A stretch of 64,000 nucleotides of DNA. Source: Lepus europaeus (lineage: Eukaryota > Chordata > Mammalia > Lagomorpha > Leporidae). The notes beneath the pieces are model-generated. The model made no database searches. It saw only the letters and a list, made by a program, of their open reading frames with translations, and had not been told where the DNA came from. The DNA lies in contig NC_084845.1 of the NCBI RefSeq assembly GCF_033115175.1, positions 2,234,501 through 2,298,500 on the forward strand, in the 5' to 3' direction. A program made the position numbers and the translations under genes. This document shows, in pieces, positions 53,474 through 56,526 of this stretch (positions are counted from its first letter, which is position 1; each line of letters begins with the position of its first letter).

Positions 53474-53874
53474 TGTGGGGAAATTAGTCACATGAAACTA
53501 TTCGAAGATGGTGCCCAAAGGAAGTAAGGTGGGCGGAATCCAAAGTTGTTTACCACTAAAACTAATTGGCTGCGCAACATCAGGGGAGGTAACAAAACTA
53601 GTAACAAGTGTATAGACATATGGCTAGTCCTATAGAAATCCCCCCGTAAAATGACCGTTTAAGTGATTGGTTGGTCCTTAGCCCTACCCCAATGACTCTG
53701 CAGTTTTGTGCTATAAAAGGTTCTGTTTCTCACGAAGTAAATGAGTCCTTGCTAGACTTGGCTCCCCGCTGCGTCTGATTGTCTCTGGGATTGGGAGGCT
53801 GGGGAACCGGCGAGCGGCGCACTCACCTTTCCTCGGACCCAGTCCATCCTGTACGGGTGGACTAAGACCCAGCA
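53474..53874 (+). repeat. 5' LTR of the ERV
   Basis: 401 bp, begins TGTGGGGAAATTAGT and ends ...CCCAGCA. It has a TATAAAAG box near 53711. It is about 13 bp longer than the 3' LTR and otherwise about 95% identical. Confidence 0.9.
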
Positions 53875-53876
53875 TC

Positions 53877-53894
53877 TGGCGCCCAACGTGGGGC
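53877..53894 (+). other. Primer-binding site, Lys-tRNA type
   Basis: TGGCGCCCAACGTGGGGC, two bases after the LTR. It is the sequence known from betaretroviruses of the MMTV/MPMV type that use tRNA-Lys1,2. Confidence 0.9.
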
Positions 53895-54265
53895 TCGAGC
53901 AGTTACTTTTCGGCCGAGGCCAAGCGGTCTCTCAGGGTAAGTGAAACCCTAGTATGGGTAATGCAGTTTCGTCCATTATGGACTCGGCCTTAAAGGCCTT
54001 ACAGGACTTGGGAGAGCCCAGAGACTCAGAGGAAGATGGCGGGGAAAGAGAACGGGCTAAGTTTAATCAAAAAGCAAAAACGAAAGTAAAAGTCACCCGG
54101 CCTAGCCCATCCGCCCCAGAAGGGCCGGAACCCCCCCCCCATACCTCCTGGGGGCAGAGACGGCCTCCCCCTATGTAAAACTGCAGAGGGAGCTACCTGA
54201 TGGGGACCCTTCCGATTGCCCGGAGGAGGGAGGAGAAATGAGGTAACCTATGTGGGAGCAGCCGC

Positions 54266-54406
54266 TGGCATGATGGCAGCCATGCCGCTCGCTCTGCTGG
54301 TGCTGCTGCTCCTGGGGCCAGGCGGCGGGGGCCAGGCAGAGCCCCCACACAACACCCTGCGGGAGGATCACCCCGCTGCCTTCCGGGGACGTGGCTGCCG
54401 CCTTCC
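54266..54406 (+). pseudogene. PIGT: PIGT-like 5' segment inside the ERV
   Basis: This starts with a PIGT-type N-terminus ([15 protein letters not shown], signal peptide, then AEPP) and continues into the early luminal region. PIGT is a core subunit of the GPI transamidase in the ER membrane. The sequence lies inside a retroviral fossil and is broken. The identification rests on my memory of the human protein. Confidence 0.8.
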
Positions 54407-55182
54407 AAGGCCCCTGGGCGCACCTGTGGTGCTGCCTCGCCCACCCGGCCGAGGGCTGCTGCACGCTGGCTGGCCCAGACCCCACGCGGTCACCGTCGGA
54501 GCTGTGCGAGGAGCTGCGCCTGACCGTGGAGCTGGGCGGCACCGCAGCCCCCTGGCACCTGGACGAAGCAGTGCAAGTACTGCGCTGCACCGCGCAAGGC
54601 AGCGCATGGAGCCCTGCGGGGACCAGCGGAGCCAGAGCGGCGGCGGCAGGGGCGGCCCCGGGCCAGCAGTGGCCTCAGCACGGGGCGGACAGCTGCTGCC
54701 CGCCGAGTCGAGCAGCGGCGCGGACCGGGAGGATGACGATGGTGGTAAACGTCGGGCCGGTGGCCTGGGCGGGAGCCCCGACGTGGCGGGAGGGGAGGGC
54801 TGAGGCTCCAGGCCCCTCTCTCCACCGCGGAACAAAGCGGGGGATGTGGGGCCGGGAGAGGAGAGGCTGGGGCGACTCTCAGAGAGGCTGCGACAGGAAC
54901 GCGGGCGGGCCGCGGACCCCGGTCCGAGGGCGCCCAGAGAGCACGTGCCTTGCAGCCCCGCGGCGCTCCCACCAGGTATGGGGCGCTCCGCGGCCGCCTG
55001 AGGCTGGGGCCTGGCCCGGCCTCCCGAGGCCCGCACGCACCTTGCTCCTGGACACTCGCTGGACCTGGCCAGAGGCAGAGAGCAGTACGTCGCAGGACTG
55101 CGAGGGCACCAGTTCAGAGCGCGGCGAGCAGGTGCGCCCCATGGATACCTGTTCCCGGCCCTCCTGCTGCACGGGCTGGGAG
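54407..55182 (+). other. Unidentified GC-rich, CpG-rich insert in the ERV
   Basis: This is about 775 bp of very GC-rich sequence between the two PIGT-like pieces. It does not resemble retroviral sequence or the middle of PIGT. Long open frames on both strands are expected at this base composition and are not evidence of a gene. It may be a second captured host sequence. Confidence 0.6.
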
Positions 55183-55617
55183 AGGGTTGAGCACCCTGCT
55201 ATACAACACCCACCCGTACCACGCCTTCCCCATGCTGCTGCTGGACACTATGCCCTGGTCTACGTGCCCATCACGTCCAAGGGCAAGGAGACCAGCCTGC
55301 CCAGGACTGCCTGCAGCCCCACCTCCTGGAGATGCTCATTCAGCTGCCTGCCAGCTCCGTCACCAAGGTCTCCATCCAGTTTGAGTGGACCCTGCTCAAG
55401 TGGACTGAGTACACTCCAGACCCCAGTCATGGCTTCTATGTCAGCCTGTCCATCCTCAGTGCAGCTACTTCGTGAGACTGTACACGGAACTGCTGCTGGT
55501 GAGCCTGCCTACGCAGGACTTCAGCATGCCCTACAATGTGATCTGCGTGTGCTACGGCTCCTTCTCCACATTGAGGAGCCTAGCACCAGCGGCCTGGCCA
55601 AGAGGCTGGCCTAAAGG
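55183..55617 (+). pseudogene. PIGT: PIGT-like 3' segment inside the ERV
   Basis: This matches the PIGT C-terminal region as I remember it, for example [42 protein letters not shown] and the end GLAKRLA. Coding blocks follow each other without introns, so it came from spliced RNA. It is broken in several places and not a working gene. Confidence 0.85.
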
Positions 55618-55619
55618 AA

Positions 55620-56138
55620 CAACTTTTAAAACAAAAGGGGGGCACCAACCCCCCTCTCAATGGGTGTGTGAGACTACAGGGATGGGTCATTGGATTAAAA
55701 AGGGGGCACCAACCCCCCTCTCAATGGGCGTGGGAGACTACGGGGATGGGTCATTGGATTAGTCAAAAGGTTCTCAGGAAAAAATCTGGAATGGATGTCA
55801 AATTGTTAATGAGACTTTGGGCCAATGGGTGGCACCCCAGAAGGGAGGGATGTTTTTGTTATGCAGGGCTACAGACTCACACCTTGTATTTCCATAGGGG
55901 TACTGGTACACAATGATTCCTGCATGCTAGTGTCCCTCATCCCCCACGTACTGTATCCACGCTCCCATAATTACAAGTCACGTGACACCCCAAGACGGGG
56001 AAAGCACCCAGCGTCCTGTACCAACCTAAGACAGGGCTCATGGCCAAGTTGCCTGGGTTACCAATGACGGGTAAGGGCAAGGACGGCTGGGGTCAACCTA
56101 AGACAGGGACCCCATGCTAAAACAAAAAAGGGGGAATA
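55620..56138 (+). other. Env-like remnant and polypurine tract of the ERV
   Basis: The stretch at 55780-56030 has the flavour of the C-terminal part of a type-D/gamma-like surface protein, with a basic cluster near its end. A 64-bp unit is duplicated in tandem at 55633-55761. AAAAAAGGGGG just before the 3' LTR is the polypurine tract. Env assignment is by resemblance only. Confidence 0.5.
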
Positions 56139-56526
56139 TGTGGGGAAATTAGTTACATGATGGTGCCCAAAGGAAGTAAGGTGGGTGGAATCCAAAGTTG
56201 TTTACCGCTAAAACTAATTGGCTATGCAACATCAGGGGAGGTAACAAAACTAGTAACAAGTGTATAGACATATGGCTAGTCCTATAGCAATCCCCCCATA
56301 AGGTGATTTTTTAAGTGATTGGTTGGTCCTTAGCCCTGCCCCAATGACTCTGCAGTTTTGTGCTATAAAAGTTTCTGTTTCTCAGGAAGTAAATGAGTCC
56401 TTGCTAGACTTGGCTCCCCGCTGTGTCTGATTGCCTCTGGGATTGGGAGGCTGGGGAACGGGCGAGCGGCGCACTTACCTTTCCTCGGACCCAGTCCATC
56501 CTGTACGGGTGGACTAAGACCCAGCA
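56139..56526 (+). repeat. 3' LTR of the ERV
   Basis: 388 bp, from TGTGGGGAAATTAGT to CCCAGCA, followed directly by the CATATG target duplicate. Confidence 0.9.

Follow-up and report, generated by a model that had tools for sequence, protein, structure and literature searches.

We analysed a stretch of 64,000 nucleotides from the hare Lepus europaeus (contig NC_084845.1, positions 2,234,501 to 2,298,500 of the forward strand; hereafter the window), which contains a short betaretrovirus-like provirus at 53474-56526. An initial annotation had described this provirus as the single, rare fossil of a virus that captured the mRNA of the host gene PIGT. A genome search for further copies showed instead that it belongs to a family with at least 34 loci, in which pieces of four host genes lie one inside the other. 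With a probability of about 0.8, the family represents a helper-dependent, betaretrovirus-like element that captured host genes passively and serially, in a nested fashion and by template switching, and that inserted until recently.

All internal features of the provirus lie on the forward (+) strand. Comparison of its borders identified a target duplication, CATATG (no strand), at 53468-53473 and 56527-56532. Alignment of the pair of long terminal repeats (LTRs) placed the 5' LTR (401 bp) at 53474-53874 and the 3' LTR (388 bp) at 56139-56526, both with TG...CA ends and with 19 differences over 388 aligned bases. The 5' LTR is followed by a primer-binding site read from the letters (TGGCGCCCAACGTGGGGC, 53877-53894), which we take to be of the tRNA-Lys1,2 type, and by a leader (53895-53953), which is part of a 73-bp stretch of primer site and leader with the lowest variation among 12 copies. 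Then come a gag start with a gag-type ATG at 53954 (53954-54253), whose frame stops after 74 codons in this copy, the host DNA, an env remnant (55618-56118) containing a 64-bp direct repeat (55633-55760), and a polypurine tract (56119-56138), again read from the letters. Apart from the leader and the 64-bp repeat, the annotation had named these viral parts, and all were located. The 6-bp target duplication and the Lys primer site, both found here, are marks of betaretroviruses, or class II endogenous retroviruses (ERVs). The env remnant of the window copy remained under the Pfam cut-off (E 0.035). Of nine frame pieces tried, four showed the TLV_coat family at E < 0.1, and it passed the cut-off in two relatives (E 8.4e-19 in an old copy and 3.8e-6). 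TLV_coat is a gamma-type env that is also present in D-type betaretroviruses.

In the host DNA the annotation had recognised the N- and C-terminal parts of PIGT, with 54266-55617 as the stretch to compare with that gene. This proved right for the two ends: 54254-54408 corresponds to exon 1 of PIGT in the host (some 16 nt of 5' untranslated region (UTR) and, at 54270-54408, codons 1-49 with a small frameshifting deletion), and 55187-55611 to spliced codons about 367-566, from which five internal stretches are missing by comparison with human PIGT. The best block had 87.7% identity over 57 amino acids (E 2e-25), and the N-terminal blocks gave E 6e-12; the match reached 103 bits, whereas 20 shuffled queries gave 28 bits at most. 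The recognition of this gene was confirmed by Pfam Gpi16 (E 9.6e-13 and 7.5e-9) and by the solved PIG-T chain in the PDB (E 6e-27). The PIGT codons are spread over several frames with small deletions, and the broken frames rule out a working PIGT gene here. The 780 bases between the two PIGT parts (54409-55187), about 58% of 54266-55617, are not PIGT but derive from three other genes; a forced PIGT alignment over this middle part was noise and was rejected.

The first of these pieces (54409-54592) is from DNAAF5 exon 1, with internal deletions. It matched the host gene with 66 bits (best of 200 shuffles, 21 bits), and the gene was named with the help of an old copy (Pfam TPR_DNAAF5, E 5.8e-25). 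The second (54593-54844) has 87% identity to the 5' end of a GC-rich locus of the host genome (contig C9), with which it is colinear. The first exon of that locus begins like the ZFTA protein, and a spin-doc zinc finger is encoded downstream of it (PF18658, E 2.7e-7). The match to this family alone cannot tell ZFTA from its relatives, and we tentatively read the locus as ZFTA. The third piece (54841-55187) covers the 5'UTR and signal peptide of APCDD1 and runs into the beginning of its next exon; it matched the host gene, which was named through an old copy that contains more of it (PDB 8e0r, E 3.9e-35; Pfam APCDDC, E 1.3e-10). Three of the four host sources have a named match in this way. Nothing useful came from protein database searches with one frame of the window insert, PDB searches with its middle frames and its DNAAF5 piece, Pfam scans of the middle frames, Rfam and tRNA scans, or two LTR patterns and one gag search against viral contigs.

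Searching the hare genome itself (2.93 Gb, 649 contigs) with the insert gave at least 63 matches; 40 of the 45 candidates were scored, so that the copy number is a lower bound. We diagrammed 34 fetched loci, the window copy included, as blocks with BLAST edges, and read the joints base by base in L039, L040, L042, L043 and the window copy. PIGT was found in 33 of the 34 loci. In 32 its match started, after gag, within 6 nt of one same PIGT base, 12-18 nt before the ATG, and in 27 it ended at codon 566, before the stop codon, with env no more than 7 bases further on. Two others (L040 and L041) had the same PIGT end, then another repeat and then env, and the remaining five loci were without that part. 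The common gag/PIGT joint and the direct PIGT/env joint point to a single founding capture that was then amplified.

The family copies are devoid of PIGT introns, which are present in the host gene on contig C12. This would also be expected of a LINE (long interspersed element)-made processed PIGT retrocopy that landed in an existing ERV. Such an origin is extremely improbable, because PIGT sequence sets in just ahead of the ATG and breaks off at codon 566, almost next to env, and because identical joints recur at many sites. The annotation had looked to a poly(A) tail or a separate target duplication around PIGT as the signs of such a retrocopy; in L039, L042, L043 and the window copy, whose joints were read for this, there was no trace of these, nor of the PIGT 3'UTR. 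What we found is spliced host sequence amid viral sequence, within one LTR pair and one target duplication, with joints common to many loci, and this bears out the proposed capture of PIGT cDNA between gag and env. The distance between the LTRs (1.5-3.8 kb in 29/29 measured copies) is too small for gag, pol and env. Viral coding sequence has been lost, a helper would be needed, and the spread over 34 loci with common joints is that of a viral genome, beyond one chromosomal accident.

Exact 6-bp target duplications were present in 19 of the 30 copies with two LTRs, and three more (L039, L057 and L070) had a one-base mismatch. The same flanking hexamers were shared by L040 and L041 and by L062 and L063, which we took as duplicates, and L054 (C23:9084300-9091200) is a tandem pair of family members with the middle LTR in common. 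The independent insertions are therefore somewhat fewer than the loci. L048 (C10:108493500-108498500) comprises ZFTA and APCDD1 pieces and env without a PIGT match, and has an LTR in the opposite orientation on one side. The LTR itself is far commoner than the insert (1994 first-look candidates, 40 of them scored); contig C22 holds 8 of the 40 scored matches, perhaps solo LTRs.

Older copies were informative on how the pieces came together. L039, in which the LTRs are 0.116 apart (Kimura two-parameter distance, K2P), contains gag, PIGT codons 1-49, 152 open codons of DNAAF5, PIGT codons 304-566 and env, with the PIGT introns gone. Its DNAAF5 part is uninterrupted and follows host DNAAF5 colinearly through the joint; the similarity ends at a position read as the splice donor of host exon 1, which fits spliced RNA. 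In the old copy L042, the C9/ZFTA piece separates bases 523 and 522 of DNAAF5, and not a base of DNAAF5 is missing there. L040, L041 and L049 have the 5'UTR and spliced cDNA of APCDD1 after ZFTA, and in L040 and L041 ZFTA and DNAAF5 sequence resumes 3' of APCDD1. A tree of the PIGT and leader/gag pieces of 33 loci, rooted on host PIGT, grouped L042 and L039, the two old copies without APCDD1, with the host versus the rest (support 0.918). These arrangements suggest that PIGT and DNAAF5 came first, that the ZFTA piece then entered DNAAF5, and that APCDD1 cDNA finally entered ZFTA, an order that is the likelier reading of the data and not the only one.

Microhomology was above chance at three host-host joints. 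The shared words were 8 nt long at PIGT/DNAAF5, 10 nt at ZFTA/APCDD1 and 6 nt at ZFTA/DNAAF5, and random joints between the same sequences (50,000 draws each) matched these lengths with p values of 0.0013, 0.0002 and 0.008, respectively; as the words had been picked by eye beforehand, these figures are favourable.

Several points weaken the case for serial capture in this order and by template switching. The two basal splits of the tree are weak (0.42 for the order of L039 and L042, 0.43 for the next split). L039 could have arisen by exact loss of ZFTA, since L042 lost no DNAAF5 and the ZFTA piece has a short repeated word on either side; this word can also be read as a target duplication. L042 has a deletion across the entry point of APCDD1, so that APCDD1 may have been lost there. 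Finally, the ZFTA piece runs colinear with its genomic locus, as expected of unspliced RNA but also of a DNA-level event. It could also be proposed that reverse transcriptase walked from PIGT to DNAAF5, ZFTA and APCDD1 and back in one round, the simpler copies being later losses. The mirror-like order of the pieces and the microhomology agree with such a single complex event, and a loss from one repeated word to the other would restore the arrangement seen in L039. Yet this loss would have to be exact to leave DNAAF5 colinear and open over 152 codons in L039, and the tree sets both APCDD1-free old copies apart from the rest, on the side of the host. We consider a single event unlikely and keep to serial capture.

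The annotation had also placed the entry of the virus into the germ line, as an infection, several million years ago. LTR distances ranged from 0 to more than 0.11 across copies, which does not support one dated entry. We left out the disturbed values of L043, L060 and L066, and those of L040-L042 rest on poorly placed ends. Six of 30 LTR pairs had zero substitutions over 388-390 bases; three of these had one alignment gap from trimmed ends, which a misplaced end explained in two. Pooled, the six pairs gave a 95% upper bound of 0.13%. Mammalian substitution rates are 2.2 to 4.5e-9, and all our ages are based on them: the six youngest copies would on average be no more than about 0.3 million years old, the window copy about 6-12 and L039 about 13-26 million years. 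Some copies thus look recently inserted. Later copies have common deletions inside PIGT that are absent from L039, which indicates that these deletions arose before the insertion of those copies. A test of the deletions found six events relative to human PIGT where 0.54 were expected (p 2e-5), with few indels behind it; the deletions common to different loci are better evidence.

At the window site, the flanks of the provirus recur in inverted orientation at 61413-64000 with 96.6-97.9% identity, and flank alignment within the window located the empty pre-insertion site there, at 62206-62230 on the reverse (-) strand. The insertion would therefore be younger than the duplication of the flanks, unless gene conversion restored the empty site. 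At first sight the LTR pair (5.1% K2P) looks older than the flank duplication (2-3%), in contradiction with the empty site. The conflict disappeared once CpG sites were removed, the LTR pair (10/388) and the flanks (63/2593) then having divergences that agree (p 0.86). The insertion lies in a SINE (short interspersed element), presumably of a lagomorph type.

Another possibility considered is that selection maintains a product of the host pieces, such as a fusion of Gag with host protein. The gag frame was open into the PIGT start in 18 of 28 copies (29 given, one of them skipped), so that a coding role is conceivable, and to the end of the PIGT part in 3 of 28 (31 given, three of them without bounds). 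The oldest simple copy has a 420-codon open frame spanning PIGT-DNAAF5-PIGT. In the latter set of 28, the longest frame belonged to the sense strand in 21 copies and to the other strand in 7, as high G+C content allows, which does not favour a selected product. Changes by codon position had a slight third-position lean in the first 60 codons over all 28 copies (37/31/41), but were even among the 20 younger ones (21/19/19 and 17/17/18), and we found no clear codon-position bias in gag.

Mean differences among 12 copies were 2.6% in the leader, 3.9% in the LTR, 3.5% in env, 4.2-5.6% in PIGT, 6.5% in gag, 7.5% in APCDD1, 9.5% in ZFTA and 9.7% in DNAAF5. This set was taken as young, and includes the window copy (5.1%) and L053, for which there is no LTR distance. 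Removal of CpG sites took away most of the excess in the host pieces (leader 1.2%, LTR 2.5%, PIGT 2.4-2.7%, APCDD1 2.5%, DNAAF5 3.6%, ZFTA 4.4%, gag 4.5%). Indels per kb and pair were most frequent in ZFTA (11.4) and APCDD1 (9.0), compared with 1.7 in the LTR, and this too counts against a selected product, which we hold to be quite improbable. A passive cargo is the simplest reading, though not a proven one; frameshifts, deletions and the lack of clear bias in gag are in line with the passive capture that the annotation had proposed.

An acutely transforming virus that entered the germ line and used the captured genes to drive growth would have the same kind of gag-host-env layout, and APCDD1 and ZFTA have growth- and cancer-related roles. 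PIGT and DNAAF5, on the other hand, are housekeeping or ciliary genes, the pieces in the window copy are partial and mutually out of frame, and the many loci with inherited deletions indicate expansion in the germ line. The chance that the family is of this kind is very small.

We infer the agent (template switching), the order of capture, the helper and the passive role of the cargo from these comparisons. In the mechanism that we propose, an element without pol and without most of gag and env would have acquired PIGT mRNA, already spliced, in the interval from its gag start to env. At short shared words, reverse transcriptase may then have jumped into further host RNAs, so that DNAAF5 came to lie in PIGT, the ZFTA piece in DNAAF5 and APCDD1 cDNA in ZFTA. 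The element would have retained its cis-acting sequences (LTRs, primer site, leader and polypurine tract) and received its proteins in trans from a helper. It would have spread to at least 34 loci until recently, while host cargo was partly deleted and the losses were passed on to later copies. A more far-reaching version is tentative, with a little less than an even chance: unrelated host genes would have been taken serially, each into the previous one, with the GC-rich cargo acting as a trap for the next, and the lineage would still be jumping, its youngest copies being polymorphic.

Most of what is known about host gene capture by retroviruses comes from tumours, in which selection for growth masks the underlying process. 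The acute avian viruses AEV, MH2 and E26 carry two host genes. They resemble the hare family in the gag-host-env layout and in having more than one host gene, but are exogenous tumour viruses under growth selection, whereas the hare family is in the germ line, with four genes that appear passive. The mouse ETn/MusD and IAP deletion families are likewise short LTR elements spread by proteins supplied in trans, but we know of no nested host cDNA in their inner sequence. In the open PMC library, beyond which most subscription papers lie, we found neither a description of this family nor one of an ERV with nested captures. Nearest to it are two crocodilian ERVs with captured host mRNA, CrocERV29 (KIT-ligand) and CrocERV31 (nectin3) (PMC4299795), and maize Bs1. 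The crocodilian ERVs, too, are multicopy, and nectin3 was gained at the expense of env; they differ in having one gene per lineage and in purifying selection, which the source reports for KIT-ligand and also mentions for nectin3 (PMC4299795). The hare family, by contrast, has nested pieces of four genes, broken frames and no clear codon-position bias. The maize LTR retrotransposon Bs1 also contains several host gene fragments, with segments of three genes from three distinct transductions, but is a plant element, and nesting is unmentioned in the part of the text consulted (PMC13317346); the hare family is retroviral and mammalian. A review on gene exchange between retroviruses and hosts names single captured genes in the portion consulted (PMC13297096).

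Within this one lineage, copies whose LTR pairs diverge to very different degrees document captures, joints, deletions and spread, and the cargo bears few marks of selection; these copies form a natural record of reverse transcriptase joining unrelated RNAs. They also indicate that a gene-less element can persist, through copies with LTR differences from 0 to more than 11%. The young insertions are sites that can be scored in living animals, and the recent-looking copies would open repeated germ-line gene theft by a retrovirus to direct study.

The provirus lies within a cluster of class C receptor genes (Pfam 7tm_3, E 2.8e-85, and ANF_receptor, E 4.7e-20, on two frames), presumably of the vomeronasal type 2. 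Long open frames resembling exons of such receptors are found in both orientations at 695-1600, 5581-6540, 10673-11578, 19689-20654, 45753-46664 and 51047-51922, within inverted and direct duplications. The window also contains an open frame of 187 codons encoding C2H2 zinc fingers (21431-21994) and a 36-bp tandem repeat (40365-40654; 8 copies, 99% matches) inside a 118-codon open frame.

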